Assembly: GCA_002841885.1 (NCBI GenBank)
Contig: PHBE01000020.1
Location: 1-64,000 of the forward strand
Origin: Deltaproteobacteria bacterium HGW-Deltaproteobacteria-18
Lineage (GTDB): Bacteria; Desulfobacterota; Desulfovibrionia; Desulfovibrionales; Desulfomicrobiaceae
Direction of reading: 5' to 3'
DNA: 64,000 nt
A program made the translations under genes and the position numbers. The notes beneath the pieces were generated by a model. That model did not search any database. It was given only the letters and a program-made list of their open reading frames with translations, and had not been told where the DNA came from. How positions within the stretch are numbered: the stretch's first letter is position 1; each line of letters begins with the position of its first letter. This document shows positions 5,259 through 45,164 of this stretch, piece by piece.

Positions 5259-5345
5259 AAGAGTATTAATGTCGAGTAAGCTCCGATTTATTTAGATATG
5301 TGTCTTTTTTTCAGGGCTGGCGAATTCCCTGCTGTTCGCAAATTT

Positions 5346-6584: not shown

Positions 6585-6677
6585 TATCAAAGGTGTCCGG
6601 AATTTGTGTAAGCGGTTCTGTTAAAGACTTTTCACCCTGTCTTTAAACGGGGCACTGAATCTGATCAACGCGGTCTT

Positions 6678-6794: not shown

Positions 6795-6957
6795 CTCGGT
6801 GGGATCAGGAGCAGAGGGACGAGGTGAGAGTCTGGTTGATTCGGAGTGATTTGATGGATCCAAAGAAATGTCGTTTTGAGCCGTGGCCTTTATTTTGCTA
6901 ACCGGACAGCATGACTTCAGTTTCAGTCAAATTTCAGTCCGGGAGGCAGGGGGGGGC

Positions 6958-8651: not shown

Positions 8652-8652
8652 A

Positions 8653-21890: not shown

Positions 21891-22712
21891 TTATATGGTT
21901 GCGAAGGCGCAAGCATACTGTGTCTGTTGCTGAGATGCCAATTCCGCATCATAGACGAGCAGTTCCTCCAGCCTAGCCGCGTTCTCGACATCATCAAAAT
22001 TGGCGATAATGTCCTTGAGGGCCAGATTGTAAACTACTCCGCCCGTCATGCGGATTTGTGCGCCAGGGAAAATCTGTCGTAGAGCTGGAAGGATATTGTC
22101 GCTATCCGCAGCTTCGGATGGATCTGTGGCGCGCATGCTGCCCAAGTCGGGTCGTGTCACGTGCGTCGGACATGTCCTTTGGGGCTGTGCACGGTCGAGC
22201 AACAATCGTTCCGGTAAAGACCGGCGTACACGGCTGGCAGTTTACAATTAGCTGTCCGGCCACTGAAAGCGCGTAGCGTCGACGTAATCGTCCATCACCA
22301 GCCAGCCGCCAGGGCGAAGCTTCTCTCGACTCCAGAGGAACGCCTGTCGCACGTCAAACATGTGGTGCAGTGCGTTGTTCCAGTAAACAAGGTCGTACTG
22401 ATCGGCCTCGTCCCTGGCAAAGGCGTCCTGAACATGGAAGCTTGCGCGTTCCGCCACGCCGCCCTTGACGGCTGCAGCCCTGCCGTGTGCCACTCTTTCA
22501 TGGCTGAGTTCGAACAGGTCAAAGCGCCCGACTATTCCTTTCCGTAGCAATTGCAGTTCTTTGGATGCGTTGCCGCAGCCAATGGATATGCCGCGTGAAA
22601 AGTAGCCTCCTTGAACCAATGCCTGCATCCGCATTTCAAGCCCTGGCCATGGACCATCCACGACATTGCCGCACACCAAGGCGTTGATGTGGCGCATAAC
22701 GGGCGGATGCAT
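21891..22712 (-). pseudogene. Frameshifted SAM-dependent methyltransferase
   Basis: The N-terminal half (22248-22712, from ATG 22712) is a good class I methyltransferase: RGISIGCGNASKELQLL (motif I), RFDLFELSHERV (motif II), YDLVYWNNALHHMFDV (motif IV) and LRPGGWLVMDDYV. It stops after RFQWPDS, where relatives continue. A different frame then encodes the natural C-terminal part (MRATDPSEAADSDNILPAL, then FDDVENAARLEELL) down to 21891. The junction at about 22180-22255 does not read cleanly in any frame, so more than one indel is likely. The gene is probably dead and lies between two giant glycosyltransferase genes. Confidence 0.72.
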
Positions 22713-25700: not shown

Positions 25701-27859
25701 TCGGTTTTCAGGCGACGCACTGCGTTAAGGAAGTCCTCGTCACGATTGTCAACCAGTAGGCCATTTACGTTGTGGCGGATGATTTCGGTCGCGCCGCTTT
25801 TTGTGCGCGTACAAATTGGTACCAATCCACACGCCATGGCCTCCATTAAGGAGATAGACATGCCTTCGTAGTCGGAAAGCAGCATGAATACGTGGTGTTT
25901 TACTAATTCAGGGAAAATTTCAGCGTATTTCAGTATTCCGCCATATGATATGTTATTATTCGGGCTGAGCTTATTAATTTCCCCAACTGCTCTTCCGCCT
26001 TCCCTATCTTCTCCAAAAAAAGAAATTTCTATGCCACCAATATGATTGAGTAACATTTTGCTAGAAGCAATGACATCGAAAATTCTTTTTTGCCGCTGAA
26101 TTAAACGCCCTGTATAAATTATTTTTAGATTATCATTAGGCGGTGTGCTCGTTAATTCAGGGATTTCAACTCCATAAGGCCTGTGCAAGATGGTCGTGTT
26201 AAGGGAATCTTTATCACGGGCAAGGCTTTCGATGTGCCGTGAAACGCAGACAATTGCCGAGAGGCTGAATTGAGTTTTGGAGTCACCAAAAGTATCTATG
26301 ATTTCGTGATGAAATGTATCGTCAGAGTGAATTATTCCTACGGTTGGGATGCCAGACTGTTTCGCCCACTTGGCAGCATAATATGCAGGGACGCTCAAAT
26401 TTGGTATAAAGATATCAGTTTTTTCTGTTTCTAAAATTTTTAATATATCAACAATAATATGCTCAGTATATTTGCTCTTTAATATCTTTGTACACTTAAT
26501 GCCCTGTGATTCAATGTTTTTAACTATGTTGCATGAATCGTTTGAATTCATCAAAAAAATAACATGAGGACTGAATCCTCTTTTTAGAAGCTTTGGGAGG
26601 ATTCTTTGTAGCCATATATTTGGTCCATTAATCTGGTTTGGCCCATAAGCGACAAATGAAATTTTTGGAAATTGATGGCCTTTAGGGTTCATTACTGACT
26701 GAAAAGTATATGCATTTTGCATAAAAGTTGATTTTAGGGATTTAGTGGCAAAATCGGCAAGTTTTGGGATTTTAATGGACCAGTCTAGATGCGATTCGGC
26801 ATATGTACGTATCTCAGAGCGCAATTCGGGTCTTTTGTTCATTGCTCTAGCAAATTCTAGGATAGAATCAATGCAAATTGGGGATTCATCAGAAGAAACT
26901 TTGTGTACCCATGGAAGATCGGTAGGTATGTCTGCGTCAAAATCGGAGTATACTATTGGAAGACCTTGTGAGAAATATAGTCTATGTTTTAACGAAGATC
27001 CTTCCGCCATGCCTATTCTGTGTCTGCCCAGTGTTCCAATCGCTATGCTGCATTGATTTGCAATTTTATGTATTTCGTGTTGTGGGATAAAGCCGTGGAA
27101 TCGTATCCATTTTTCAACTCCGTACGTATACGCTTGCTTTTTGTAATCATCCAAGAATGGACCGTCTCCAATGAAATGGAAGATATAGGGTGCTCTTGTT
27201 TTAGATTTTTTAATACCTTCAATTATTCGTTCATATGCGTGCCAATTCTGAAATTTTGCAGCTACAAGAATTTCGAGGGGGGCACTTTTTGAAGGGTTGT
27301 CAAGTATTTTTATTTCATTAACACGAATTCCATTACCTAGAACAAGGCCACTTTTTTGGTAGCTGCTTTGCTGAATTTCATAATCAAGTATTTCTTTTGT
27401 TACAGCAGTCAGACCCAGAGCTCGTTGCCGCATTATGGGTCCAAATTGTAATTCGTTACGTAAAAGTGATATGGCATTTTGAGGTTTAATTTCTTCTAAT
27501 TCTTTTGTGTGGTGTTCAAGTATTATATTTTTATTATTTTTTAAGAAGTCGATCCAATGAATATCTGTATGGTAAGAATATCTGAGTATTACAATATCAG
27601 GTTTTTTTTTGTTTATTGCTATTTGGAATATATCTGTAACTATTTTGCTATGCTCTGACTTTTCTGATGTTTTGTATAGTTTTTGTGAATCAAAAAGGCT
27701 TACGGCGCGTGGATTGCAAGCAATTTTGCTCCACCCTTCTCCAACTACAAGGCCGTCAGATTCCGGATAAAGTTCTCTGATTGAGAGAACTTGGTTGTCA
27801 ACTTTATCAAAAAGCTGTCTGTTACTGCTTTTTATGTAAGCTAAAAAAAGTATTTTCAT
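22532..27859 (-). CDS. Giant modular protein GT4-GT4-methyltransferase-GT4-methyltransferase
   Basis: A 1775-codon frame with five modules. (1) GT4-like, residues about 1-390 (FHFIGDGPFLDDYKKQA, RHRIGMAEGSSLKHRLYFSQ). (2) GT4, about 396-775 (IIYTGRLIQRQKRIFDVI, LLSDYEGMSISLMEAMACG). (3) Methyltransferase, about 808-1040 (GTLLDIGCGQMPYREH, AMATEVLEHCHDPL). (4) GT4, about 1049-1440 (LLTVARFVEKKGLEYSIAAF, GVPVSLIEAQAIGLP). (5) Methyltransferase with an N-terminal zinc-ribbon-like CPIC...CPGC pair, about 1450-1660 (SFDAIYCSHVLEHVPDDHAA). After a run of ten G (22799-22808) the last 90 codons look out of frame; with one G fewer the protein would end at 22729 in a more natural tail. It could build and methylate several residues of one glycan. 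Base composition is markedly AT-rich in modules 1-2 and GC-richer in 3-5, suggesting a fusion of different origins. Confidence 0.85.
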   Translation of the reverse strand: MKILFLAYIKSSNRQLFDKVDNQVLSIRELYPESDGLVVGEGWSKIACNPRAVSLFDSQKLYKTSEKSEHSKIVTDIFQIAINKKKPDIVILRYSYHTDIHWIDFLKNNKNIILEHHTKELEEIKPQNAISLLRNELQFGPIMRQRALGLTAVTKEILDYEIQQSSYQKSGLVLGNGIRVNEIKILDNPSKSAPLEILVAAKFQNWHAYERIIEGIKKSKTRAPYIFHFIGDGPFLDDYKKQAYTYGVEKWIRFHGFIPQHEIHKIANQCSIAIGTLGRHRIGMAEGSSLKHRLYFSQGLPIVYSDFDADIPTDLPWVHKVSSDESPICIDSILEFARAMNKRPELRSEIRTYAESHLDWSIKIPKLADFATKSLKSTFMQNAYTFQSVMNPKGHQFPKISFVAYGPNQINGPNIWLQRILPKLLKRGFSPHVIFLMNSNDSCNIVKNIESQGIKCTKILKSKYTEHIIVDILKILETEKTDIFIPNLSVPAYYAAKWAKQSGIPTVGIIHSDDTFHHEIIDTFGDSKTQFSLSAIVCVSRHIESLARDKDSLNTTILHRPYGVEIPELTSTPPNDNLKIIYTGRLIQRQKRIFDVIASSKMLLNHIGGIEISFFGEDREGGRAVGEINKLSPNNNISYGGILKYAEIFPELVKHHVFMLLSDYEGMSISLMEAMACGLVPICTRTKSGATEIIRHNVNGLLVDNRDEDFLNAVRRLKTEKGLWERLSQGARNTIKNEYSIDICADKWADFLLTLINKAGEKQQIKIPELHEIHLPPVKKSDNGMCREDKRMPRVQTTNTLQPEQNDNFLNPRLAPDFADLFIVRSAIKNSLDKHLASFHGTLLDIGCGQMPYREHILASQPLIKQFIGLDFAQGKYADRRQPDITWNGSSIPLADGSIDCAMATEVLEHCHDPLTVLKEIRRVLRPSGTFFFTVPFLWPIHDAPHDHYRYTPFALQKFLSDAGFEDIHTEAMGGWNASLAQMIGLWLKRAPMSEAARKQATTDLFPFYEQLIKTDVKPTDFNKNPMITGLSGTAKAPARRQTIAQNSNGPRVVIVTDQFPILSQTFILDQMTGLIDRGITVEHWSLQRMTEPVIHENVSKYGLLDSTRYINLPPDSLRTDPKRWTTQFLKSNGLAVLDDVEAVQIHFGPNFNKLAPLFAAYPELFVLISFHGYDGSATFKIKGADVYKGLFARANKITTPSEYMKSTLVQFGCSPDKVTVHHYGKDTASFAPAPRQESSEPIKLLTVARFVEKKGLEYSIAAFAKAQTGLNAQYRLVGYGELEPQLKSLAKSLGVADKVVFLGQLSNESVRQEMAAADVFVLTSVTAANGDQEGVPVSLIEAQAIGLPVVSSWHAGIPELVAHKESGFLAEERNIDEIAGYLRVLIKNPSIRKDFSLNARQRVLKEFDLAKLNDNLVEHLLRRTSGRERTDAQKDDSTTSTSDKKPHPNAAYCPICRNNFAQFRAFGKSPRPNALCPGCTSLERHRSLWLFLERHTEFFSTSHLRMLHFAPEICLERRFRQVMGKRYVTADLLDPKVDVRADITNLQFPDASFDAIYCSHVLEHVPDDHAAMQELFRVLDKNGLAIIMVPLRGATTEEDLTITDPEERTRRYGQADHVRYYGMDIVGRLEDVGFEVQSIDTSNVFTAKDIATMHLGRVHIFLCRKPGSVKNPDAHRPDTSRKTGGGPHSGALPRNYALRPGTGPRTKPLTELAGECIRPLCATSTPWCAAMSWMVHGQGLKCGCRHWFKEATFHAAYPLAAATHPKNCNCYGKE
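22799..22808 (-). repeat. Poly-G tract (10 G on the coding strand)
   Basis: Ten consecutive C on the + strand, read as G in the 1775-codon glycosyltransferase-methyltransferase gene near codon 1685. Changing its length by one base moves translation to a stop at 22729 (one G fewer) or to a TGA directly before the methyltransferase ATG at 22712 (one G more). Tracts of this kind are classic sites of slipped-strand phase variation. Confidence 0.8.
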
Positions 27860-30099: not shown

Positions 30100-30750
30100 T
30101 CAGGCCTTCTTGTACTCATCGTATGTTTTTGCCCCGATCGAAAGAGGTGCAGTCATGGGCTGTTCCTCATCCAGAGTCAGGCACACGAGCGCGCCCTTTA
30201 CAACCCGATAACGGAGCCCCGATTCCGGGCATACCATCACACCGTCACCATCCGGCTTGTCGAGCCTGTGTCCATGCTGGCTCATCCATCCCGTCTGCCG
30301 CCCAGGCACGCCCATGATCAGCGCGTAGTCTGGGGCATCCTTCGTGACGACACATCCCGCTGCGATAAAGGCATAGCGTCCGATGGTGACGCCGCAGACT
30401 ACCGTTGCGTTGGCCCCGACGGTTGCGCCGCGGCGGATCAGCGTTGTCTCGTACAAGGCCTGTCTGTTCACTTGGGGCCGGGGGTTGGTCACATTTGTCA
30501 GCACGCAGGACGGCCCGAGGAAGACATCGTCCTCGACCGTCGTCCCCTGATAGACGGAAACGTTGTTCTGGATTTTTACGTTGCTTCCGATGCTGACTCC
30601 AGAGGCGATCATTACGTTCTGCCCCAGATTGCAGTTGGTTCCTATGCAGGCCCGTGGCATGACATGCGAAAAATGCCAGATGCGGGTCCCTTGACCGATT
30701 TGAGCGCCATCATCAACGTAACTCGATGGATGAACAAAAAAATCTGCCAT
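30100..30750 (-). CDS. wbpD: Left-handed beta-helix N-acetyltransferase (WbpD/WlbB-like)
   Basis: A 216-residue acyltransferase of the hexapeptide family. Many I-G-x4 type rungs are visible ([67 protein letters not shown]), the start [18 protein letters not shown] is typical of WbpD/WlbB, and the end carries a small extra domain. It is expected to acetylate the 3-amino group of UDP-2-acetamido-3-amino-glucuronic acid with acetyl-CoA. It abuts the frameshifted wbpB-like dehydrogenase upstream and the aminotransferase downstream, matching the pathway order. Confidence 0.92.
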
Positions 30751-31803
30751 CAGTACTCCAGTGGTAATGAGACAGTCTTGCCGTCCCGGGCGGAAAGGTA
30801 TGCGGCGATGATGACTTCTAGACTTTTTAATCCCTCTCTGCCGTCGGATTCAGGCTCCGCATCGCCTCGTAGGGTATCTATGACATTCTTATAATAGAGC
30901 GGGTGCCCAAATCCGTAAACGGAGGTCGTCTCGTAGTTGGCCTTTTTGATCTGGTCGTCATAGTCACTTTGGTCTTTGAAATCCCAGTGCTGGATTTCAT
31001 TTACTGCAACGCCCCCCAACCGGACGGTGCCCTTTTCTCCGAAAATGGTGAGCGAGCCTTCGTAATTTTTTGGATGGGTGAGCATGGTTACAGCCATGGA
31101 GCCTAATGCCCCGTTGCGCCAGCGTACGTTCATCACGCCGGTATCCTCAACCTCTATGTCGCGCGCAAGCGTTCCTGTCATGGCTTGTACGTCGGCGATG
31201 GGCCCTATCAGCCATTCGAATAGGTCGACATAATGGCTGGCCTGATTCATGAACGCACCTCCGTCAAGCTCCCAGGTGCCGCGCCATTTGGCTTGGTCGT
31301 AATAGGCCTGTGGCCTGGTCCAAAATACGTTCACGTGCGCCATATAGATTCTGCCAAAACGCTTTTCATCAATGGCCCGTTTGACCAGTTGCAAGGTTGT
31401 GTTGCGCCGATTTTGCTTGACGACAAAAAAAACGAACCCGAGCTTTATCGCAAGCTTTGACCATTGCAATTCCGTCAGCCCATCGTGTGGCCATGGGTTT
31501 TTCAGTCATGACGTGTTTTCCAGCTTTAGCGCAACGGATGACTTCGGAAGGGTGCAAGCCGCTGGGGGTGCAAATGCAGACAAGATCAGCATCTGACTGG
31601 GCCAAGAGCGTGTCTAGACGGTCAAAGGCTTGAATTCCGAGAGATCTCTCAGTCCGGGCCAAGACTTCTCGATCGCGATCGCATACAGCAACTAGCTGCA
31701 AATTCTGTTTGTGCTGATCAATGGCGTCAAAATGTTTGCCTGAAATTCGGCCACAGCCCACGACGGCAATTTTTATCCTGCGATCATGGATTGTTGGAAA
31801 CAT
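30750..31803 (-). pseudogene. wbpB: WbpB-like nucleotide-sugar dehydrogenase, frameshifted in a T-run
   Basis: Two overlapping frames together make one Gfo/Idh/MocA oxidoreductase of about 345 residues. The first (31803 to about 31425) has the NAD-binding IKIAVVGCGRISGKHFDA and VICTPSGLH/ KHVMTEKPMAT. The second (about 31432 to 30750) continues with FVVKQNRRNTTLQLVKRA, FGRIYMAHVNVFWTRP and the family C-terminus. The break is in eight A on the + strand (31425-31432); reading seven would restore VRFFVVKQNRRN. The enzyme would oxidise C3 of UDP-GlcNAcA, the step before WbpE. The rest is well conserved, so a recent indel, slippage decoding or a sequence error are all possible. Confidence 0.82.
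31425..31432. repeat. A8/T8 homopolymer at the wbpB frame break
   Basis: Eight A on the + strand, T8 in the coding strand of the WbpB-like gene. The two halves of the protein are in different frames on either side, and a one-base change of this run joins them. Runs of this length can be realigned by RNA polymerase or slip during replication. Confidence 0.8.
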
Positions 31804-31858: not shown

Positions 31859-32998
31859 TCATGAACTGAAAATAGTCAGCGCAATTTTTAAATTATTATA
31901 AACATAAAAAATATCTTCATCGCTCATATTGTGAAATAGAGGAACTGTTATCGTAGTATTTTCACATTCATTTGCTATTGGATAGTCGTTTTCATTGATA
32001 TTGTACTTAGAAGAGTAGAAATTAAGACGATGTACAGCCATTGTTCCAGGTCTTGTTTGAATGCCATTGTCATGTAAATATTCTATGATATTATTTCGAC
32101 GCGACACCCCGCCATCAATCAGTCGTACGACATATGATTGCCATGTATGTCGCGCATGCTCAGGCTCTATGGGTAATGCCAAGTCGGGGAGTTGTGCGAA
32201 TAGTTCTGTGTAGCGACAGGCGATTCGTTTACGCTCTTTGAGAATATCGTCCATTTTGTTCAGTTGAGCAAGGCCTATCGAAGCCTGGATGTCAGAGAGC
32301 CTAAAGTTATGTCCGCAATTATCTATGTGTGGCATTTGCCAAGGGTTTTGCGCTGGGCTAGGGGTTATGCCGTGATTGCGAAGAATGCTGATGTGCTGGG
32401 CGATGCTGTCATCGTTTGTGGTGATCATGCCGCCTTCGCCGGTGGTGATGACCTTTCGGGGGTGGAAGGAGAAGCATCCCACGTCGCCAAATCCTCCGGC
32501 GTGCATCCCGCGATAACGCGACCCTGTAGCGCACGCAGCATCTTCGAGTACTGCAATTCCGTGCTTGCGTGCGATGGGTAGGATGCTATCCATGTCAGAC
32601 ATGAGTCCGAAGAGGTGCACTACAATGATGGCCTTTGTGCGGGGTGTGATGAGGGCCTCAATCCTTGCAGAGGCGATGTTGAAGTCGTCAAAGCTGATAT
32701 CGGCAAAAATTGGGCAGGCACCCACATGCTCTACAACGTTAGCTGTAGAAACCCATGTGAACGCGGGGATAATGACTTCGTCCCCGAAAGTGACTCCAAG
32801 AGCTAAAAGGGCTGTATGCATAGCCGTAGTGCACGATGTGACAGCAAATGCATGGCGTGTGTTGTGAATAGAAGCAAATCGTTTCTCAAATTCAGCGACA
32901 AACGGTCCCTGCGTGACATGGCCAGATTCAAGGCAGCGACGAAGATATTCAAGCTCTGAATCATCAAATACTGGGCGTATGATGGGTATTTTAATCAT
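31859..32998 (-). CDS. DegT/DnrJ/EryC1-family sugar aminotransferase (second copy)
   Basis: A 379-residue PLP-dependent nucleotide-sugar aminotransferase different from the wbpE-like gene. Motifs: VTSCTTAMHTALLALG (PLP phosphate loop), AVLEDAACATGSRYRG (Asp), CFSFHPRKVITTGEGGMI (Schiff-base Lys; the HPRK form is shared with perosamine/4-amino sugar synthases), and NFRLSDIQASIGLAQL. It most likely aminates a 4-keto sugar of the glycan. Only 2 bases separate it from the epimerase upstream (33001), so they are co-transcribed and may act in sequence, although no 4,6-dehydratase is obvious in the window. Confidence 0.88.
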   Translation of the reverse strand: MIKIPIIRPVFDDSELEYLRRCLESGHVTQGPFVAEFEKRFASIHNTRHAFAVTSCTTAMHTALLALGVTFGDEVIIPAFTWVSTANVVEHVGACPIFADISFDDFNIASARIEALITPRTKAIIVVHLFGLMSDMDSILPIARKHGIAVLEDAACATGSRYRGMHAGGFGDVGCFSFHPRKVITTGEGGMITTNDDSIAQHISILRNHGITPSPAQNPWQMPHIDNCGHNFRLSDIQASIGLAQLNKMDDILKERKRIACRYTELFAQLPDLALPIEPEHARHTWQSYVVRLIDGGVSRRNNIIEYLHDNGIQTRPGTMAVHRLNFYSSKYNINENDYPIANECENTTITVPLFHNMSDEDIFYVYNNLKIALTIFSS

Positions 32999-33000: not shown

Positions 33001-33951
33001 TTACATAATGTTTCGGTAGTACGCAGCCGTTCTGAGAATTCCTTCCTCAAGATCGACCATGGATTCAAATCCAAGGACATTCTTGGCCTTTTCAACACAA
33101 GGAATCCGCAATTCGATGTCGACGCTGTTTGCCGGGGCAAACTCTATCTTAGATTTTGAATTGAGCACCCGGATAACAGTGTTTGCAAGCCCATAGATGG
33201 TCTGAATGCTGCGGGCATTTCCGATATTGAACGATTCGCCAATGGCTGCATCATTTTCGAGGCAATGAAGGGTTCCATCCACCATGTCGTCAACATAACA
33301 CCATGCCCGAATCTGAGTGCCAAGACCGAAGATTGTAATAGGTTCATTTGCGAGAGCTTGTTGGATGAATACTTTAAGCGCGCCCTCGCCAACTTGTCCT
33401 GGGCCATAAATGTTGAATGGCCTGACTATGCACGTGGGAATGCCTTGCTCGCGGTGGTAGGCGAAAGCAAGATGTTCTTCAGCAAGTTTGCTAACTGCGT
33501 ATGTCCACCGGGCCTGACCAGCTGCTCCAATCACAGTTTGATCGCTCTCCTTGGATGTTAGTGCGCACGATCCGAATACTTCGCTAGTAGAAAAGCAGAC
33601 GAGTCGTTCACACATTATGTCAGCTGCAGCTTTTAAAATATTTACTGAGCCAATTATGTTAACTTCTAATGTTTCAGTTGGTCTTTTGCAAACAGTGCTT
33701 ATGCCTGCTATTCCAGCGCAATGAACTATATGAGTTGCTCCTTCGCAAGAACGACGGATCTCATTATAATTCAAGACATCTCCCTTAATTGTTGTTAAGT
33801 TTTTATGATTTACAAAATTTTGTGATGCAAGAGAATTTCTTGAAAAGTTATCAAAAATAATAACTTTATTGTTTTGAAGTAGCTTTCCAGCAAGAGTAGA
33901 GCCGATAAATCCAGCACCGCCGGTGATAAAAATTTTTTTTCCTTCCAGCAT
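33001..33951 (-). CDS. NAD-dependent nucleotide-sugar epimerase/dehydratase (SDR)
   Basis: A 316-residue extended short-chain dehydrogenase. The N-terminus has [20 protein letters not shown] (GxxGxxG), an acidic end [10 protein letters not shown], the catalytic Ser-x-Tyr-x3-Lys as STSEVFG and [11 protein letters not shown], then [14 protein letters not shown]. It belongs with UDP-glucose 4-epimerase-like enzymes but differs from the galE and UXS genes further right. ATG 33951 is the chosen start: AGAGG lies upstream, and the preceding gene ends at 33977. It may epimerise, dehydrate or reduce a sugar unique to this glycan. Confidence 0.87.
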
Positions 33952-33976
33952 AATAATCCTCTTTTTGTGTGAGTTG

Positions 33977-35341
33977 CTATTGAAACCCATGTCCAGCAGT
34001 TGGTCCAATAGTTACCCATGGTCCAATAGATTTAAGTTGTTTTCTGTCCCAGAATAAATCAGGCTTATATGTCGGGCTTGAAGCGATATGTCCAGCTTGT
34101 AAGAGGTTGACGAACGTTTCTTGGTTGTAAACTCCAAATTTTTCAATAATATTAAGTGTTATATTTTTTATGTATTCAGGTATGTCATGTTCTGTTAATG
34201 AAGATACATTTTCTGAAAATAAGGTTGGGTAAATATCATATTCATTAGAATTTGACCTTTTAATAGCATTAATGAGATAGTTAGCGATATTTTCAGGGCT
34301 TCCAAAGCCTTTATTAATAAAGTCACGACCTTTCTCTGCCATTTCTATTCGAAATGAAAGATCATTAACAGCGTTAGTAATTCGCTCTTTAATATTATTT
34401 TTTGTAATTGTGTAAATGGGCCTATTGAATGGGAGTGGAGATTCTGCTCCTGTGTGGCCACCTAAAACGATACATCCACTTGCCATACCTTCATACGCGA
34501 GTACTCCAGCGCCACAAGACAATTCGTCTATTAGTATGTCTGCGTTTGCAAGACGCTGTAATACTATTTCATGCGGAACATTTGTAATAAAATCAACATC
34601 AAATTTGAGCCCATTGTCGCTAAGTTCATGTAGTGAATTTAAAATTATGTCTGTTTGTTTGTAAAGCGTGCTAGATGGCGCGTGAAGTATGACTGGTTTT
34701 TTCCTTTTAGGGATATTGAATATGCATTGACTGGGATTGAATATCGGGCCAGACTGCATATATGGGCGGATTCCGAGAGTTTGGCTTGGTGGTCCGCTAG
34801 TGATTACATCGGCGTAGAGTTCGCTAATTCTTGTATTATGAAGTTTGTTTGCTAATGATGGATTGTACGGGCTAAGTTCTAAGACATCGAGTTCTGATTT
34901 TATAATTTCTTTTTTAGAGCTTTTGTCTCTATTATAAAAAGGGTACGTGCGACCGTGCTTTGCCCAGAATAAATTTGCTAGATCGTAGTCACGAACTTCA
35001 GTGCCGCATTGTCTACATATTATTGTTTTTCCCATAGCTTTGATGATGGGCACGTCTATCATTCTCGGTAGTAATGATGTTCCAGCGACAAATATGAATA
35101 CATCATATCTATCTATAAATTTTAAAAATTGAGAAGATGGAGTTACTTTGACTCTGCCGTCAACTGTTGCTGAAATTGAACAGGAATTAAAAAAATTTAT
35201 GTCTGTGTAAGTGTATGTGTTAGAGTATAATTTATTTGGAGTAGTGCAAAAACTATCTGCGTGAAATCCTAAACGACGAAATCCATTTGTAAGATTAGTA
35301 ATCGTGTTTGCTATATCTGAAGAGGATATTAGTATTTTCAT
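33977..35341 (-). CDS. Putative GT4-like glycosyltransferase
   Basis: A 454-residue protein with GT-B character: [20 protein letters not shown] at the N-terminus and a C-terminal half with [38 protein letters not shown] and [20 protein letters not shown], which resembles the GT4 donor site region. The last 60 residues are unusual and have no counterpart that I recognise. It is strongly AT-rich. The tight 25-base spacing to the epimerase and 13-base spacing to the methyltransferase gene show one operon. Donor and acceptor are unknown. Confidence 0.72.
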
Positions 35342-35354
35342 ATTTATTTAAAAT

Positions 35355-36155
35355 TTATTTTTGTAAAATAATTTCATGGCAACAGGGTAGTTCCATATAT
35401 TTTCCTTTAAAAAAAGGAGTCGGTGTATTTTTTCCGTGTGTTAAATTTATAGTCCCCTCTTCTCCTTGAGCGACTACTTTAAATCCGATTCTTTCTGAAT
35501 ATTCGGCGAGTTCTTTGGGTGCTATTATGATTTGTCCAACATTTATTTTGAGACCTGTTTTTTCGTATTCTAATGTATTTGCGAAAGCTTTTGAAACAAA
35601 CTCTCTGGGATCAAAATATTGCTTTTCATTAGGTCTTTCGCACCATAAGTATGCTTGGTAACCGATCGCATTCGCAGTGAGATAGACTTTGCCTTCATGT
35701 TTTGTAACCCGGTATATCTCTTTTAAGCTCTCTTTCCATGGAGTGCAAAAAATAGAACCATAGCAAAAAACGAAGTCAAATGAATTATTTTTGTATGGCA
35801 TGTTGTCAAGATGCGCAATTTCAGTATTAATATTGTAAATATTTAACTTGTTAGCGATATATTTTAGAGTGCTAATGCGTTCTGGAAGAACGTCAAACGA
35901 CGTAATTTTAAAGTTCAAAAGTGCAAGAGCGATGCTCCACTGGCCAAATCCAGCACATGCATCGAGAACATGTCCTTTAGTAAAATTAATTGATTTTATT
36001 CTTGAAATGTATTGTGAAATTGGAGTTGAATACACTCTTAATGCAAAATCTTTATCTTTTGAATTTAATATATTATTAGAGTTTAAAAACTCTGTGGCAC
36101 ATTTGTTAATTATTTTATCAGTATTGATTTTGTTGTTGTTTCTCATAATATTCAT
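35355..36155 (-). CDS. SAM-dependent methyltransferase
   Basis: A 266-residue class I methyltransferase. GHVLDACAGFGQWSIALAL is motif I, KITSFDVLPERISTL motif II, IAHLDNMPYKNNSFDFVFCYGSIFC motifs III/IV, and EGKVYLTAN the strand after. It starts at ATG 36155 with AAGGA seven bases before, overlapping the deacetylase gene by 38 bases. The DACAG form of motif I (in place of DxGxG) is less common. A probable role is methylation of a sugar or linked group in this glycan. Confidence 0.83.
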   Translation of the reverse strand: MNIMRNNNKINTDKIINKCATEFLNSNNILNSKDKDFALRVYSTPISQYISRIKSINFTKGHVLDACAGFGQWSIALALLNFKITSFDVLPERISTLKYIANKLNIYNINTEIAHLDNMPYKNNSFDFVFCYGSIFCTPWKESLKEIYRVTKHEGKVYLTANAIGYQAYLWCERPNEKQYFDPREFVSKAFANTLEYEKTGLKINVGQIIIAPKELAEYSERIGFKVVAQGEEGTINLTHGKNTPTPFFKGKYMELPCCHEIILQK

Positions 36156-36855
36156 GGCTATTTCCTTGAGAATAAATTGTATATATATCTGCAATTGTTC
36201 TAATTTTTTTATGAGATAGTATATCTAAAATTGCTTTGAATATATTTCGTATGCCAGCGCTATTACTTCTGTATGATCTAGCTTGTTCTTCATCGATCTC
36301 ATTATTATATATTTTTTGCGCAATTTTTTTATAATCAAAATTATTGTTAGAGTTGAGAAAAATATTTATTGGGTGAAATATGAGTATTTTAACGCCATTG
36401 TGGTGATTTATTTTTTTTTTGACAACTTCTTCATCATGCCTGCTTTTTATATGGAATCCATCTGACCACCATACCGGAATTCTAAATAGCCCGAAATAGT
36501 TAAATGGTAATATTTCTTGAAATGGAAGCATTATGCTTGAATCATATAATATCTTGTTGTTAATCAATGTGTCTGTTAGGCCTGCGTGCCAATATAGTCT
36601 ATGTGATCTGGTTCCTATGGCGTTTGGAAATATTTTTTTTAATCCAATTATGCACTCATTGTCATTATGTCCATGTGTTGAGCCTGGCATATAATTCGGA
36701 TGAAGTGCTATTTCTATATCTTTAAAATTGCTTGTGTCGTAAAAGTTTGTGCAAAATAGTGTGCATTTAATTTTATGCTCGTTAATAATTTTTAATGTGT
36801 CATTAATCACGTATTGTGGAGCCCAATCTGTGTCAAATGCTATAGAGTAGTGCAT
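36118..36855 (-). CDS. NodB-like polysaccharide deacetylase family protein (WbmS-like)
   Basis: A 245-residue protein resembling the WbmS-type branch of NodB-homology (CE4) proteins found in O-antigen loci. The start SIAFDTDWAPQYVINDTLKI, LFCTNFYD, IALHPNY and IGTRSHRLYWHAGL follow the NodB order (acidic motif, strand, HP, R-x-HR). The usual metal triad Asp-His-His is only partly recognisable, so activity is uncertain. The gene contains an in-frame run of ten A (36411-36420 on the + strand as T) encoding Lys residues. Very AT-rich and tightly packed with the methyltransferase that follows. Likely removes or transfers an N-acyl group. Confidence 0.68.
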   Translation of the reverse strand: MHYSIAFDTDWAPQYVINDTLKIINEHKIKCTLFCTNFYDTSNFKDIEIALHPNYMPGSTHGHNDNECIIGLKKIFPNAIGTRSHRLYWHAGLTDTLINNKILYDSSIMLPFQEILPFNYFGLFRIPVWWSDGFHIKSRHDEEVVKKKINHHNGVKILIFHPINIFLNSNNNFDYKKIAQKIYNNEIDEEQARSYRSNSAGIRNIFKAILDILSHKKIRTIADIYTIYSQGNSHEYYEKQQQNQY

Positions 36856-36888
36856 ATTTTCTATAAGTTAGATTTTTATTAATGAAGA

Positions 36889-38055
36889 CTAAATGCTTGG
36901 TGTATGAATTGTAGCGCTAAAAATAGACATTTTTTTATGCACTATATCCCAGTAAAGTGGGCTGATTGCAAGAGCTATATCTGTTACACCAAAATCTGCC
37001 ATTTTATTTGGTCCTACTATTGGGATATCGTCCACTTCATGTCCCCATACGTAGGGATTTTCATCCACAAAACAAGCAATATCATCCTTACAGGAAAGCA
37101 TAAGGTGCGCCATAGAGCCGATTGGGGATGTCCCGAATACAGCAGCTTTGCCGCCTTTGATTTGAGCTTGTCGTACAGCTGTTTCGACGCTGGCTATAGT
37201 GCGTTGAGCGATGTGTTCGCATTGACGGGCAATAGGCATGTTTTCTTCAAAGCAACTCTTTAGCGATGGAGGCGTTGTTGCGGTGTTGCGAAATGTAGCG
37301 TAGTACATAAGAGTTGAGGAGTCTTCTGCGTCAAGGACAAATCCAGCATGTCGGCATAAGGCGAGCATAGAGGGGATGGTCAGCTTGTTGATATGGTCCG
37401 CACAGAAGAGATCGCCAGGAAGAAACTCGAAGTTCGGGTGCTGCGTCAAAAGTTTGCCTCCCGGCTTCAGTCGGGCATGTATCCAGCGAAGGGCACTGAG
37501 AGGGTCGGGTGTGTGCTCTAGGACGGAGGTAACTATTACCGCGTCAAACAACTCATTCACGGGGGCGTTGTAGTAAGGAAGGTTATGAGCAGCTTCAAGG
37601 CGGATTTTTTCGGTGAGTGCGGAAAACCCTCCTCCCGGTTCAATGGCGGTAATCCGCCAGTCTGGATATGCTATTTGAAAACATTCGAGAAAAGCTCCCG
37701 TGCCTGCGCCAAAGTCGAGCACGTGTCCCTGGGTTGGAAGTTTCACAAGGCGGTTGAAAATGCTGAACGCCCGTTGATGACTTGTCATCTTTGAACTGGC
37801 CGCGGTAAATGACATGATTTGCGGTTTTGGTTTCCAGACTTCGCTATTGTAAACGCTTTCCTCGATGCCGCGTACACCGCGGGCATTAAAGATGAATCCG
37901 CACCCCGCGCAGCATCTGTTGTCGAGGGTGATGTTATTGCAGAAAAACAACTGTGACGTGATGCAGCGCCCAGAATATGCAGGATAGAGTTTTTTGTGCT
38001 CAGTAGTTCCGCAAATAGGACAAGATGTTGAATATTTTTCAATGCATGCTTGCAT
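36889..38055 (-). CDS. Sugar C-methyltransferase-like protein with zinc-binding N-terminus
   Basis: A 388-residue three-part methyltransferase. The N-terminus has CPICG and a CCAGCGF pair that probably bind zinc. The middle has a SAM domain (HVLDFGAGTGAFLECFQ, ITAIEPGGG, FDAVIVTSVLEHTPDPL, LKPGGKLLTQHPN). The C-terminus (KGGKAAVFGTSPIGSMAHL, then CFVDENPYVWGHEVDDIPIV) has the Rossmann-like form seen in C-methyltransferases such as TylCIII/NovU relatives. ATG 38055 is preferred over a TTG at 38106 because the upstream gene ends at 38069. It may attach a C-methyl branch to a keto-sugar. Confidence 0.82.
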   Translation of the reverse strand: MQACIEKYSTSCPICGTTEHKKLYPAYSGRCITSQLFFCNNITLDNRCCAGCGFIFNARGVRGIEESVYNSEVWKPKPQIMSFTAASSKMTSHQRAFSIFNRLVKLPTQGHVLDFGAGTGAFLECFQIAYPDWRITAIEPGGGFSALTEKIRLEAAHNLPYYNAPVNELFDAVIVTSVLEHTPDPLSALRWIHARLKPGGKLLTQHPNFEFLPGDLFCADHINKLTIPSMLALCRHAGFVLDAEDSSTLMYYATFRNTATTPPSLKSCFEENMPIARQCEHIAQRTIASVETAVRQAQIKGGKAAVFGTSPIGSMAHLMLSCKDDIACFVDENPYVWGHEVDDIPIVGPNKMADFGVTDIALAISPLYWDIVHKKMSIFSATIHTPSI

Positions 38056-38068
38056 AGTTGCGTGGCTC

Positions 38069-39394
38069 TTATGACTCTTCAATTTTTGTGGAGTTGCTAT
38101 AATCAATCCAGCTGTCTTGCATGTCTTCTATATTGCTGTATATAGACCAACAACGCATGCATCCGTAGTAAGCGCCATACTCACGAAGTTTTGCGCGCTG
38201 TTCGCGCATTTCTTCTCCATTCCAAATATCCAGCAAAGATTGTTTGTGGACGTTCCCAGTTGGCGCTAAAATGCACTGAGGGAGCGGTTTGATAAAACCT
38301 TCCGGATTGATGAAGAGTGTATGCCAGTGTGTTTCGCAGTGGCTTTTTGGATATACTCCAGAAGCGTCTGAAAGGCAAAATTCAAGATTTTCTGGTGTAA
38401 AATTTGGACGAAAGTTTATTCTAGCGCCTTTAGAAATGTATTTGTCTTCAATATATTTTTTTTGCTCGAGGATGACTGATGGGTTTATTTTTGACAAATT
38501 TACGTACTGCGCACTAGTTTCTTCAACAGTTACTCCAGATGACAATGCGTGCTCTGCATTGTGCTTTTTTACCATGTCTTTAGATATGTAGTTAAACATA
38601 TAGAAGCCAATAAAAATTTCGTTTAAGAGCCCATTATCGTGCATGTCGTCAATAAAAGCGCTCATCGAATCAAAATTTTTGTCGTTTACAGTAAAATAGC
38701 ATCCTAGTTGGATATCGAGGCCGCGTTTATTCCTCTGCTCGACCATCATGCGCAGGCCTTTGATGATTTGAGCATGGGCCCCGTTGACGCCGCAAAGCGA
38801 ATTGTGAACTTCGGCGGGGCCATCTAGGGATACTCTCAGCGCATTCACTTCAAGGGCAGCTAATCGGTCAGCAAATTTGGGAAGCAGCAATCCATTTGTC
38901 AGCATGGAAAAAGGAAGACCTTTTGTCTTGGTGTACTCAATGAAGGGAATAAGCTGAGAATAGAGAAGTGATTCCATCCACGGTATGCGGATGGTGGGAT
39001 GATACCATGCCGATTCGTCGATGATGCGTTTGCAGAGGTCCAGTGGGAGTTCAAATTTGGTGTGAGGGTCGATGACATTATGCAGCACCTTGGTGTTCTT
39101 GCTGCCTTCTTCTTCAGCTCTGCCGTGGCTAAGGTCGCAATATGAGCAGCGAAGGTTGCACCTATTGTTGACGCAAAAATTGATAGTATGCGGAGGCAGG
39201 CTGTATCCCTCTGCATTAGTTTTATATTGCAGTGATTGTAAAAGATGCAAAGCTCGGCTTACTCTGTAAAGAGGTATTGGTAAAGAATTTATATATTTTG
39301 TAAACTTTGCATAAGAATTGCGTGCTGTTAGCCCGTCTTTGGTTAGCCCTGAGTCGGTTAGCCAGTCTTGCGGTGAAGCGGTGTGGTTGATCAT
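38069..39394 (-). CDS. Radical SAM protein with SPASM-type C-terminus
   Basis: A 441-residue radical SAM enzyme. The 4Fe-4S cluster motif is CNLRCSYC near residue 80, preceded by INFCVNNR, with TNGLLLPKFADRLAAL and ALRVSLDGP as later barrel motifs. The C-terminus has a Cys-rich SPASM/twitch region (SHCETHW, PLPQCILAP, GCMRCWS), suggesting auxiliary Fe-S clusters. It overlaps the ATP-grasp gene by 4 bases. In glycan loci such enzymes are rare; peptide or amino-sugar modification are both possible. The fold is confident, the reaction is not. Confidence 0.88.
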   Translation of the reverse strand: MINHTASPQDWLTDSGLTKDGLTARNSYAKFTKYINSLPIPLYRVSRALHLLQSLQYKTNAEGYSLPPHTINFCVNNRCNLRCSYCDLSHGRAEEEGSKNTKVLHNVIDPHTKFELPLDLCKRIIDESAWYHPTIRIPWMESLLYSQLIPFIEYTKTKGLPFSMLTNGLLLPKFADRLAALEVNALRVSLDGPAEVHNSLCGVNGAHAQIIKGLRMMVEQRNKRGLDIQLGCYFTVNDKNFDSMSAFIDDMHDNGLLNEIFIGFYMFNYISKDMVKKHNAEHALSSGVTVEETSAQYVNLSKINPSVILEQKKYIEDKYISKGARINFRPNFTPENLEFCLSDASGVYPKSHCETHWHTLFINPEGFIKPLPQCILAPTGNVHKQSLLDIWNGEEMREQRAKLREYGAYYGCMRCWSIYSNIEDMQDSWIDYSNSTKIEES

Positions 39395-40494
39395 AATATT
39401 CTCCTAGACGAGGCATGTGCGCCCGGGCAGGGGGCCTCGTCGCCCGTGTCCGTAAAATGTTCCTGAAGTCCTCTGGTGACAACGCCGGTGCGGTAAGCAA
39501 AGCGTGGTTCGACAGACTGTTTCAATATATGCCGTCTAATGAGAACGTCTGGTTCGTTGAATCCTGCCATCGCCCGAAGTGATGTGGTGCCTGAAAATCG
39601 GGGGTTGATTTCAAATACGCAAATTTTTCCGTTAACGAATCGACACTGGATGTTGATTGCGCCGTGTGGTTGCAGTATTTTTGCCAGTTCTTCGCTTGGT
39701 TTCGTTATCTCAGGAAAGGAACCGATTGTTCCCTGTGAGATGCCGCTGCTGATAACAAGAAATGGTCCCAATTCGTGGCGGTCGGTCTTGTTGGGTACTC
39801 GAATCCTGCGGCTAAGGGCTGAATCGAGCGAACGGTGGACTGCGATTGAGTTGATGAACCTGCCATTGAGGTCGTTGAGGATGCCAACCGTGTACTCGTC
39901 TTCCGGAGTCCCAACATATTCCTGGGCGATGAATTCTGGATATGATTCAAGCAAAAAGCGTGCAAATAGTTGCGCTTCCGCTTCGTTTTGAACAATGACG
40001 GTGTCTGCTGACCCTCCAGATCCTTTGGAGGGTTTGAAAACAATTGGAAAAATTGGAAAACTTGAGGCATCTTCCAAGGACCCTATGCGTCGAAACCAAG
40101 GTGCTTGAAATCCATATTTATGGAGCATGTCGAACGTGGCGAGTTTGTCCATACATACGTCGATTAGGCTGGCCGGATTGATGGGTAGCAATATTCCGTT
40201 GGCGGAAATGGTTTCTCTGTGTTCGCTCATGACTTTGAGTTCTATCTCCGAACCAGGGAAGAGCGTCTGTATACTGTGCTCATGGCATAGTGCAAGCAGC
40301 CCTTGTAAATACTCTGGTGCTGTCGCGCGAGGTAATATTGCTGTTGTGTCTACTAGGGCAAACCCTGAGCTGTATGGGTTAGTATCTGTTCCAACTATGT
40401 GGTATGGTGTAGATGCGAGGCGTAATGCCTTGACAATCTGTTCACCAAGCGCTCCTCCGCCAACTCCAGTAACGCAAACCCGTATGTCATTCAT
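39391..40494 (-). CDS. ATP-grasp ligase
   Basis: A 367-residue ATP-grasp protein, of the carbamoyl-phosphate-synthase-like branch. The N-terminal Rossmann part is VCVTGVGGGALGEQIVKAL, and the ATP-grasp core is FPIVFKPSKGSGGSADTVIV, followed by EFIAQEYVGTPEDEYTVGIL and the metal-binding CVFEINPRFSGTTSL. Such enzymes ligate a carboxylate to an amine or thiol, often an amino acid. It is coupled with the radical SAM gene (ATGA) and overlaps the phosphoesterase gene by 4 bases. A role in attaching an amino acid or carboxylate to a glycan sugar is inferred. ATG 40494 is chosen; ATG 40503 is three codons upstream. Confidence 0.88.
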   Translation of the reverse strand: MNDIRVCVTGVGGGALGEQIVKALRLASTPYHIVGTDTNPYSSGFALVDTTAILPRATAPEYLQGLLALCHEHSIQTLFPGSEIELKVMSEHRETISANGILLPINPASLIDVCMDKLATFDMLHKYGFQAPWFRRIGSLEDASSFPIFPIVFKPSKGSGGSADTVIVQNEAEAQLFARFLLESYPEFIAQEYVGTPEDEYTVGILNDLNGRFINSIAVHRSLDSALSRRIRVPNKTDRHELGPFLVISSGISQGTIGSFPEITKPSEELAKILQPHGAINIQCRFVNGKICVFEINPRFSGTTSLRAMAGFNEPDVLIRRHILKQSVEPRFAYRTGVVTRGLQEHFTDTGDEAPCPGAHASSRRIL

Positions 40495-41198
40495 GAGCAA
40501 CATTCCTTTGCTGCCGCAATTATATGAGATTCATTTCGATCAAAGCACTTCCGTACGAGTGGATGCACTGCTTGCAAGAGTTTAGGCGATGGCGTAAACG
40601 GTAGTCTGATAATTTTTGCTTTCATTTCTGGGAATTCTAAAATAGCAAATGAAAGTAATCTGCCGCTGTCACGAGGCATACCGCATGACCCTGGGTTAAG
40701 TAGCAACGTTCCGTCCCGGATTGTCAAATGCGGACGATGCGTGTGCGCCGTCAAAACGCAGTCGATTCCATCAGGCACGTGTATTGCGTCTGGATTGTGG
40801 CCATACCCGGAGAGAGGGTCCTGTGGCGTGCCGTGGCAGAGTAGAAGACGACGGCCTCCAACGTCTAGATGAAGCATGGGGCCGTTTGCTTCAACTGACC
40901 GCAACCAAGCTGAGGGGAGGGCGGTTCGTAATCTCTTTAGGCCGTATACAGCGTCTTTTTCAGGAGAAATCGGTTGCAGATTGAAAAGCATTGCTTCATG
41001 GTTGCCCATTATAGAAATTGCGTTGTTTTGCAAAAGCATATTGCATACTTCATTCCCGTGAGGCATGTATCCAACTGCATCGCCAAGATGGATTAATGTA
41101 TGCACCCCGTGATTCAGTAGATATTTGATGCATATATTCAGTCCAGCTGCGTTGCCGTGTGTGTCTCCCAGGATTCCGATGCGAAAATGCACAATCAT
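40491..41198 (-). CDS. Metallophosphoesterase (calcineurin-like)
   Basis: A 235-residue phosphoesterase with all five family motifs: GDTHGN, LGDAVGYMPHGN, MGNHEAM, LCHGTP and TAHTHRPH. It resembles the YfcE/MJ0936-type phosphodiesterases and ends with a helical extension. The start could be ATG 41198 or the GTG two codons later at 41192; GGAG lies only two bases before the ATG and eight before the GTG, so the GTG is the better fit. As the first gene of the coupled phosphoesterase-ATP-grasp-radical SAM set it may act on a phosphorylated or nucleotide-linked intermediate. Confidence 0.88.
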   Translation of the reverse strand: MIVHFRIGILGDTHGNAAGLNICIKYLLNHGVHTLIHLGDAVGYMPHGNEVCNMLLQNNAISIMGNHEAMLFNLQPISPEKDAVYGLKRLRTALPSAWLRSVEANGPMLHLDVGGRRLLLCHGTPQDPLSGYGHNPDAIHVPDGIDCVLTAHTHRPHLTIRDGTLLLNPGSCGMPRDSGRLLSFAILEFPEMKAKIIRLPFTPSPKLLQAVHPLVRKCFDRNESHIIAAAKECCS

Positions 41199-43537: not shown

Positions 43538-44155
43538 TTATACGGCCAGGGCCTTCAGGGTCAGCCACTCTCTGATTGTTTCATCCGGGACGGCTTCATT
43601 CATGAAATCAACCTGTTCAGTCATATCCACATCGTCGAAATAGCAAAGTTGCTCCAGGAAAAGCTTGGCGTTGAAGGCCCCCCGGAAAAGCGTCTTGGTG
43701 CGGTGGATGAGGTCCGGCAGGGTGACGTGGTCACGGAGCAGGAAATAGAGGTCCACGTAATCCTTCCACTTGCTTCTTCTGCCCAGCGCATAGGCTTTCA
43801 TGGATCCGATGACCGGTATTTCCGGCAGTCGGATTCCTGCGCGCGGCCACGACACGGTGGGGCGGATGGGGAATGGAAAGGAGAAGAAGGTCAGTTTGAC
43901 GCCTTGGACGATGATGGTCAGTTCATCGGCTGTGGCGGTCAGCGTATGCTCCGGGAAGTGCCCTTTGGCTTGGAGAGTGCGAAGGATCGATTCCGGCCGG
44001 ATTTCTTCGGGCGTGGCCAGGTCGAAATCGATGGATTTCCGGTGCCCGATCTGTAGGGCTAGGGCGGTTCCACCGCAGAGATAGAATTTCGGGAAACTGG
44101 GTAAAATCGTTTCGGCCAGGGTCAGTTGGGCTTGGCTCAGAATCTCTTCATGCAT
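43538..44155 (-). CDS. AbiEii-like nucleotidyltransferase (putative toxin)
   Basis: A 205-residue protein of the AbiEii/nucleotidyltransferase family. FYLCGGTALALQIGHRKSID followed by FDLATPEE is the nucleotidyl-transfer site (GG...D-x-D), and SKWKDYVDLYFLL is the later conserved Lys-Asp motif. The frame is open to 44290, but ATG 44155 is the likely start, overlapping the end of the small gene before it. AbiEii proteins act as toxins in type IV-like abortive-infection pairs. Here the partner is the 91-residue protein upstream rather than a classic AbiEi. It is the last gene of a four-gene module. Confidence 0.82.
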   Translation of the reverse strand: MHEEILSQAQLTLAETILPSFPKFYLCGGTALALQIGHRKSIDFDLATPEEIRPESILRTLQAKGHFPEHTLTATADELTIIVQGVKLTFFSFPFPIRPTVSWPRAGIRLPEIPVIGSMKAYALGRRSKWKDYVDLYFLLRDHVTLPDLIHRTKTLFRGAFNAKLFLEQLCYFDDVDMTEQVDFMNEAVPDETIREWLTLKALAV

Positions 44156-44423
44156 GATGGGCAAAATAGAGTGAAAAGTAGTTGATGGTCGGCGGGCGGT
44201 AATTGCAGCGTTCTTTTCGGATCTGTTGTTCAAAGATTTCGCGGACCTTTGGGGTGCCAATTTCCTCAAGCAATTGCCTGACGTCATCAAGATCGCCCTT
44301 GGTCAGGATGCCCTCGACCACGCTTTCAAGGGACAGCATGCGTTTGTCCGCGACATCCCACCACAGATATTCGCGGGGGACCACGAGGGTGTTGAACTGG
44401 TCTTCAGTTAGCATGGCGTGCAT
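44148..44423 (-). CDS. Small putative antitoxin paired with AbiEii-like protein (DUF6922-like)
   Basis: A 91-residue protein with YLWWDV, SVVEGILTKGDLDDVRQLLE and IGTPKVREIFEQQIRKER, a pattern I associate with the DUF6922 family found next to nucleotidyltransferase toxins. ATG 44423 sits 5 bases after the previous stop, with AAAGAG upstream; the frame is open to 44600 but would overlap the HepT-like gene. The gene overlaps the AbiEii-like gene by 8 bases. The antitoxin role is inferred from the pairing, and the family name is recalled, not searched. Confidence 0.7.
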   Translation of the reverse strand: MHAMLTEDQFNTLVVPREYLWWDVADKRMLSLESVVEGILTKGDLDDVRQLLEEIGTPKVREIFEQQIRKERCNYRPPTINYFSLYFAHHA

Positions 44424-44427
44424 GATT

Positions 44428-44853
44428 TTACTCTTTCCCAAGCCACTTCTCACGCATGATTGAAGCAAAATGTTTTGCAAGCTTTTCGTATTCAGGAAGT
44501 CTGCTCCAGATGGATTCTGCCATCTCCTGAAGGTAGATATGGCTGAGCTGATTTCTGTCATTGATAGCCTGGATGAAAAGTTCGTACATCGGATAATCAC
44601 AGTAGCCAGCTTCCACGAATTCTTTTGCGACAGATTTGGGAGTCACGACATCAACGCCGTCCACCTCGTACAGAAATGCCTGGATTGTTTTCCACAGTAG
44701 CTCTATTGTAAACTCAAATTTTTGTATTTGGCCTGACTTGATATTGTCTGCAACAAGTTCTTGAAATAATGTTGGCTCGAGGGTCAGTGCATCGCTGAAA
44801 TTTGAGAGCGCGTCATCCAGGTTGTTCAATTTGCGCGCGAGCTTTGTTTCCAT
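44428..44853 (-). CDS. HepT/HI0074-like nucleotidyltransferase substrate-binding protein
   Basis: A 141-residue all-helical protein of the HI0074 (NTase substrate-binding) group, related to HEPN toxins. FEFTIELLWKTIQAFL is the family core, and NDRNQLSHIY gives the HEPN motif R-x4-H-x-Y, the form in which HepT toxins are AMP-modified on the Tyr by their MntA partner. It overlaps the MNT-type gene upstream by 28 bases and precedes the small antitoxin-like gene by 4 bases. It could be a RNase-like toxin or a substrate-binding subunit; the intact R-x4-H-x-Y favours the former but does not prove it. Confidence 0.84.
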   Translation of the reverse strand: METKLARKLNNLDDALSNFSDALTLEPTLFQELVADNIKSGQIQKFEFTIELLWKTIQAFLYEVDGVDVVTPKSVAKEFVEAGYCDYPMYELFIQAINDRNQLSHIYLQEMAESIWSRLPEYEKLAKHFASIMREKWLGKE

Positions 44854-45164
44854 ACGACAACCTCTTGCATGGCGATGTTCTTGAATTCTGGGGGTGCGGT
44901 GTCCATGTTCACGAGATCCACCCGGTGGGGAATGATGCTTTCTTCCAGCTCGGTCAGAAGGCGGTCACGGGTTTTGAGAAAGGTTTTCTCATCCAGTCCG
45001 CTGAAACCAATGTCGATGTCGGAACTGCGCCGCTCAGTCTTCCGTGCCCGCGAGCCAAACAGGAAAATGGTGCAATCGAGACCCTTGGTGACCTTGAGCG
45101 CCAGCATTCGCATTTGGTTCAGGTATTTATCCTGATATGAATGGGACGGAAGCGTGGTCTTCAT
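44826..45164 (-). CDS. Minimal nucleotidyltransferase (MntA-like antitoxin)
   Basis: A 112-residue MNT-domain protein. IFLFGSRARKTERRSSDIDI contains the catalytic G-S-x10-D-x-D motif, and later RVDLVNMD supplies the third acidic residue. In MntA-HepT systems this protein adds AMP to the toxin. It overlaps the HepT-like gene, starts at ATG 45164 with GAGGGG just upstream, and is the first gene of the four-gene module 43538-45164. It is only 9 bases from the TPR gene, so shared transcription with upstream housekeeping genes is possible. Confidence 0.86.
   Translation of the reverse strand: MKTTLPSHSYQDKYLNQMRMLALKVTKGLDCTIFLFGSRARKTERRSSDIDIGFSGLDEKTFLKTRDRLLTELEESIIPHRVDLVNMDTAPPEFKNIAMQEVVVWKQSSRAN

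Follow-up and report, generated by a model that had tools for sequence, protein, structure and literature searches.

In the PylB-PylC pairing an acid made by radical chemistry is subsequently ligated by an ATP-grasp enzyme, and peptidyl-nucleoside pathways also combine ATP-grasp, radical S-adenosylmethionine (SAM), methyltransferase and phosphatase enzymes. The logic of the former is shared by a cassette of four genes, encoding a metallophosphoesterase (MPE), an ATP-grasp ligase, a radical SAM/SPASM enzyme and a C-methyltransferase-like protein (MT1), which we analysed within a 64,000-nucleotide stretch of PHBE01000020.1 (hereafter the window), this being contig 20 of the 4.0 Mb genome of Deltaproteobacteria bacterium HGW-Deltaproteobacteria-18, an organism whose placement among the Desulfovibrionales was read from its relatives. 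The likeness to PylB-PylC is one of working principle only, since here the radical SAM enzyme is of the SPASM type, the setting is lipopolysaccharide (LPS) and a phosphoesterase is added. The region was read as an LPS/O-antigen locus because it contains genes for KdsB, a Kdo transferase-like protein, GalE and a UDP-GlcNAc 2-epimerase family protein, as well as several genes for sugar aminotransferases and methyltransferases. Bacterial surface glycans are documented to carry amino acids and other acids in amide linkage (PMC3210612). A search of the open-access literature found no description of this cassette, or of a radical SAM/ATP-grasp pairing in surface-sugar clusters, though one may exist elsewhere. 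The four genes are:

40491 to 41198, minus strand: MPE, a calcineurin-like metallophosphoesterase of the YfcE/MJ0936-like superfamily (Pfam PF12850, 7e-19)
39391 to 40503, minus strand: ATP-grasp ligase of the PRK12767.1-1 (NF009402) family with a PylC-like N-terminal domain (NF009402, 363 bits against a cut-off of 218)
38069 to 39394, minus strand: radical SAM/SPASM enzyme (PF04055, 1.4e-13; PF13186, 2.3e-8)
36889 to 38106, minus strand: MT1, with a Zn-ribbon-like N-terminus, Methyltransf_23 and a C-methyltransferase-like C-terminal domain (possible ATG start at 38055)

A four-gene block conserved in content and order

We searched for the members of the cassette in other genomes, sampling the home phylum in depth. 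Radical SAM orthologues of 50-75% identity were found in five other genomes of a class sample, and among 348 genomes of the order the radical SAM enzyme scored >650 bits in eight, including the source, with no match in any listed genus mate. The same eight genomes gave at least 570 bits with MT1 (one more, G104, gave 304) and at least 529 bits with the ATP-grasp ligase, for which G154 (521) and G221 (470) came next, followed by weaker matches in others. Wherever a close radical SAM orthologue was found (8/8 genomes, seven besides that of the window), the quartet is contiguous and in identical order; the pairwise distances of the four genes are correlated (r 0.66-0.85, permutation p 0.0002-0.018), and the recognisable catalytic or ligand residues of each protein are invariant across six orthologues. 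Contiguity, fixed order, shared genomes and correlated distances together indicate that the quartet travels as a unit, and from its patchy distribution we infer horizontal movement between surface-glycan clusters of anaerobic bacteria that are related to one another.

Among the ~345 genomes of the order, no radical SAM or MT1 match of comparable strength was found outside these eight. More distant radical SAM homologues (about 140-280 bits) occur in the order and the phylum, and the other three genes were absent from the stretches read around them. Neither the radical SAM enzyme nor MT1 had a match in the plasmid collection, the ATP-grasp ligase was found in the source genome only across 49 genomes reached through other loci and 247 phylum genomes, and a comparison of the radical SAM alignment with all genome contigs returned, among the matches listed, generic radical SAM proteins only, whose best segments covered part of the query and for the most part were 22-33% identical to it.

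The original prediction had taken six reverse-strand genes, overlapping or nearly so, as one set, adding to the quartet a WbmS-like deacetylase and a second methyltransferase (MT2), and had proposed that the radical SAM, ATP-grasp and phosphoesterase genes are coupled within an LPS/O-antigen locus and would recur together elsewhere. The coupling is borne out by the gene content of the locus and by the contiguity of this trio in 8/8 genomes of the order-wide search. All six open reading frames (ORFs) are real, intact and on the minus strand, with small corrections of position, and Pfam matches above the gathering cut-offs were obtained for Metallophos_2, ATP-grasp_3/PylC-like_N, Radical_SAM, SPASM, Methyltransf_23 and WbmS-like. 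The conserved unit, however, is the quartet at 36889-41198, usually accompanied by a glycosyltransferase-like gene at 33977-35341, rather than all six genes, the deacetylase and MT2 being accessory and of different base composition. Coupling by ATGA overlaps, as proposed, is present at the junction between the ATP-grasp and radical SAM genes (4 nucleotides, nt), but not at the others: the overlap of the MPE and ATP-grasp genes is 13 nt long, the radical SAM and MT1 genes overlap only if the TTG at 38106 or 38082 is the start of MT1 (its in-frame ATG, 38055, leaves a 13-nt gap instead), a 33-nt gap separates MT1 from the deacetylase, and the start of MT2 lies within the deacetylase gene. Position 36118, given as the edge of the cassette, is passed by MT2 (35355-36194).

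Relationships of the quartet proteins

The putative metal ligands of the MPE (D12, H14, D40, N66, H67, H122, H152 and H154) are invariant in six orthologues, the orthologues being 39-49% identical. By profile the MPE matched PDB entry 3rqz (E 7e-24), and it reached the PF12850 superfamily model, its score with the model of YfcE phosphodiesterases (TIGR00040) being 48.4 bits, below the cut-off of 56.25.

In the ATP-grasp ligase a C-terminal EINPRFSGTT motif is invariant in six orthologues. Structure predictions were made from thin alignments, built from the window protein and the related loci; the ATP-grasp model (mean pLDDT 77.5) matched 2pn1 best (Z 29.3), followed by GAR synthetase (26.4), PylC (26.3), biotin carboxylase (25.3) and PurK (24.6). 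The ligase thus resembles the 'carbamoyl phosphate synthase-like' PRK12767/NF009402 proteins, whose family cut-off it exceeds by a wide margin and which include its closest solved structure, 2pn1, but differs from them in sitting in a fixed block with the MPE, the radical SAM enzyme and the C-methyltransferase-like protein. With PylC and GAR synthetase (PurD) it shares the fold of ATP-grasp carboxylate-amine ligases, whilst it falls far short of the PylC equivalog TIGR03909 (15.5 bits against a cut-off of 248.3) and the Z ranking leaves room for bicarbonate-using relatives.

The radical SAM/SPASM enzyme scored above the cut-offs of both of its Pfam domains (PF04055, 51.8 bits against 29.5; PF13186, 34.6 bits against 21.5), and in the orthologue alignment the C79xxxC83xxC86 motif, the SPASM cysteines C353, C374, C412 and C415, and likewise C340 are invariant. 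Its model (mean pLDDT 70.3) has a well-predicted core, with the termini and several loops below 50, and its best structural match by 2.6 Z units was the cytosylglucuronate decarboxylase BlsE (7vob, Z 26.1), which was also the best PDB profile match of the sequence; DesII (23.5), second by Z, was tied with the peptide enzymes SuiB (23.4) and SkfB (22.8), and ChlB was also among the matches. Identity to BlsE and DesII is nevertheless 15-16%, and the BlsE equivalog TIGR04466 (cut-off 400) was not among the 25 best of 52 models for the window protein. The GGEP motif is essential in BlsE (PMC3715490). This canonical motif is absent here, 8/8 orthologues carrying W139-M/V-E-P/S/A instead, which marks a conserved radical SAM clade with GGEP replaced by W-M/V-E.

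The C-methyltransferase-like architecture proposed for MT1 was supported: hhalign aligned it at 97.7% over 321 columns to a PF08484-bearing protein, nearly over its full length, from the N-terminal cysteine region through Methyltransf_23 to the C-terminal domain, and residues C29/C32/C66/C69 and DxGxG are invariant. We take this architecture to be that of the sugar C-methyltransferase class, from whose PF08484-bearing members MT1 differs in having no direct Pfam match to PF08421 or PF08484 (up to E 2); its PDB profile search returned the generic methyltransferase core only.

The MPE-ATP-grasp pair with other radical enzymes

We inspected genomes in which the ATP-grasp gene occurs without a radical SAM gene of the window type. 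Four other loci, one of them on a plasmid, have the MPE-ATP-grasp pair near non-orthologous radical SAM families, and in two of these the genes are adjacent. In G154 the gene directly after the pair encodes a SPASM enzyme other than that of the window, and the next one a B12-type-like radical SAM protein (BchE/HpnJ-like); in G221 the pair is directly followed by another radical SAM protein resembling the B12 type (BchE/HpnJ-like). The G158 pair sits at the end of a contig, and the remainder of the ATP-grasp gene is on a contig that also bears a third SPASM enzyme and the glycosyltransferase-like gene. The fourth locus is on a plasmid of the cockroach-gut deltaproteobacterium Smac51 (CP026658.1, L175), where the pair is 52% identical and has within 25 kb several radical SAM genes including one for a SPASM enzyme, an aminotransferase gene and a gene distantly related to that of the glycosyltransferase-like protein. 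The order aminotransferase-MPE-ATP-grasp-MT1 occurs in G104, where 20 kb of sequence showed no radical SAM gene, as expected if the radical SAM enzyme is an add-on. Radical SAM genes number about 28-46 per genome (12 genomes checked), by estimate roughly 1% of genes, and at this frequency, a genome-wide rather than a glycan-locus rate, repeated adjacency to unrelated radical SAM families is unlikely to arise by chance.

The MPE-ATP-grasp pair therefore resembles a chassis on which radical tailoring enzymes can be exchanged. We would suggest only tentatively that it marks an undescribed class of glycan tailoring, in which a fixed MPE-ATP-grasp chassis is combined with interchangeable radical SAM (SPASM or B12-type) and C-methylating enzymes to place radical-made substituents on surface sugars. 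If this were so, radical chemistry would be a recurring and interchangeable element in the way anaerobic bacteria diversify their surface polysaccharides, the loci would offer enzyme candidates for making unusual sugars with acyl groups or branches, and the pair would serve as a genetic marker for finding more such systems.

Two further arrangements were seen during this work. On the viral contig L172 (IMGVR_UViG_3300009788_000098, 4919-8981) two B12-binding radical SAM genes overlap an ATP-grasp relative, and a different locus of G112 (L021, 2631-12670) combines an L-amino-acid-ligase-type ATP-grasp gene with three radical SAM genes, an HMGL-like aldolase gene and a methyltransferase gene.

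Genes beside the quartet

The following genes lie beside the quartet in the window:

36118 to 36855, minus strand: accessory WbmS-like polysaccharide deacetylase (PF22537, 4e-39; GC 30%)
35355 to 36194, minus strand: accessory class I methyltransferase MT2 (GC 32%; in 3/8 loci)
33977 to 35341, minus strand: glycosyltransferase-like protein, by sequence reading (beside the quartet in 7/8 loci)
33001 to 34008, minus strand: short-chain dehydrogenase/reductase (SDR), 4,6-dehydratase/epimerase-like (a close homologue, 67-70%, near the quartet in L016, L017 and L020)
31859 to 32998, minus strand: DegT/DnrJ sugar aminotransferase, PseC/LegC/ArnB-like though under the equivalog cut-offs (PF01041, 2e-116; NCBIfam)

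The glycosyltransferase-like protein had no Pfam or NCBIfam match, and its place beside the quartet in seven of the eight loci suggests that it is probably the dedicated transferase. The deacetylase scored 134.9 bits with the WbmS-like family PF22537 (cut-off 27), and a deacetylase follows MT1 in three of the eight loci (the window, L018 and L128); the deacetylase and MT2 are optional, AT-rich neighbours outside the conserved block. GC content is ~55% at the edges and 43-49% in the quartet, and drops to 30-36% in three genes, those of the glycosyltransferase-like protein, MT2 and the deacetylase, so that the six genes originally named do not have a single recent history in common. The low values of these three genes (33977-36855), compared with 53% for the whole window, are a sign of separate recent acquisition.

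A possible tailoring pathway and its alternatives

The explanation that we favour, with a probability of roughly 45%, is that the quartet is a tailoring cassette, passed on horizontally and lodged in an LPS/O-antigen locus, which furnishes an LPS amino sugar with an amide-linked, C-methylated or radical-edited substituent. The original prediction had likewise pictured an amide-linked amino acid or a radical-derived branch on a surface sugar, chemistry that is still a prediction. The structural matches, the MT1 alignment and the documented amide-linked acids are what suggest an amide-forming ATP-grasp step and radical or methyl tailoring. Working from genes that are present with intact catalytic residues, co-inherited and set among glycan genes, we envisage the following reactions, in a likewise predicted order. 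The SDR and the DegT aminotransferase would supply an amino sugar linked to a nucleotide, unless the amine is instead exposed by the optional deacetylase; the ATP-grasp ligase would convert a carboxylate to an acyl phosphate and couple it to the amine, as GAR synthetase and PylC do; the radical SAM/SPASM enzyme and the C-methyltransferase-like protein would carry out radical chemistry and methylation on the acyl group or the sugar; the phosphoesterase would strip a phosphate or phosphodiester from an intermediate; and the glycosyltransferase-like protein (33977-35341) would transfer the completed residue.

Several points weigh against this explanation, which rests on genes and models and whose chemistry is predicted. 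The MPE is without an assigned substrate, amide ligases and the bicarbonate-using PurK and biotin carboxylase (Z 24.6-25.3) are not told apart by the ATP-grasp fold, and BlsE-like chemistry is not simply transferable to an enzyme that lacks GGEP. The radical SAM enzyme could also act on the sugar ring, in which case the acyl idea would be wrong for the radical step. A rival reading is a pathway of sugar-ring remodelling, in which the SDR, the aminotransferase, MT1 and a BlsE/DesII-like radical SAM enzyme would produce a nucleotide sugar that is branched or deoxygenated/deaminated; the phosphoesterase and ATP-grasp ligase would then act on precursors, and no acyl group would be added. It would fit the sugar-acting BlsE as best fold and profile match with DesII second by Z, the MT1 architecture, taken as that of the sugar C-methyltransferase class, and the aminotransferase and SDR near the quartet in most loci; we nevertheless consider it somewhat unlikely, since it leaves the ATP-grasp ligase, the more widely conserved partner, without an obvious role, and DesII is tied with peptide enzymes. 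Less probable again is a soluble small molecule, e.g. an unusual amino acid or a peptidyl nucleoside, that is secondarily attached to a glycan or used elsewhere: such enzyme combinations also serve in peptidyl-nucleoside pathways and the MPE-ATP-grasp pair recurs with varied partners, but the loci read lie among glycan genes, with the glycosyltransferase-like partner in 7/8, and no adenylation domain, carrier or transporter was noticed as a constant partner.

The original prediction had also regarded radical SAM and ATP-grasp enzymes coupled by ATGA overlaps as typical of peptide modification, and a peptide-modifying operon of the ribosomally synthesized and post-translationally modified peptide (RiPP) type could have lodged in the glycan locus. 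SPASM and ATP-grasp enzymes are reported to occur in RiPP pathways (PMC8939145, PMC8326336), and the structural matches include SuiB, SkfB and ChlB. A search for precursor peptides, however, found no related small ORF (20-120 amino acids, outside larger genes) in or around the eight cassettes except for one chance-like 10-bit match, which argues against a peptide pathway; with BlsE as the best structural match as well, no evidence connects the set to peptide modification, and we rejected it as very improbable. As glycan loci are mosaics of mobile genes, a chance neighbourhood of unrelated glycan genes was also considered. For the four-gene block it was rejected as scarcely credible on the co-occurrence counts, namely 8/8 contiguous loci with order kept, correlated divergence and the lack of comparable radical SAM or MT1 matches elsewhere in the order, but it may still hold for the deacetylase and MT2.

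Other features of the window

Three further features of the window were recorded. A Gfo/Idh (WbpB-like) gene at 30750-31803 is in two frames, with the break near a run of eight T. Its halves align to one intact relative, with identities of 81% and 53%, so the break may mark the edge of a recombination, a site of slippage or an error of sequencing. The interval that separates the glycan genes from the kdsB side (43538-45164) contains a gene for an AbiEii-type nucleotidyltransferase together with an MNT/HEPN-like pair (nucleotidyltransferase/substrate-binding). A 1775-amino-acid protein encoded at 22532-27859 has three stretches of glycosyltransferase group 1 and two of methyltransferase.

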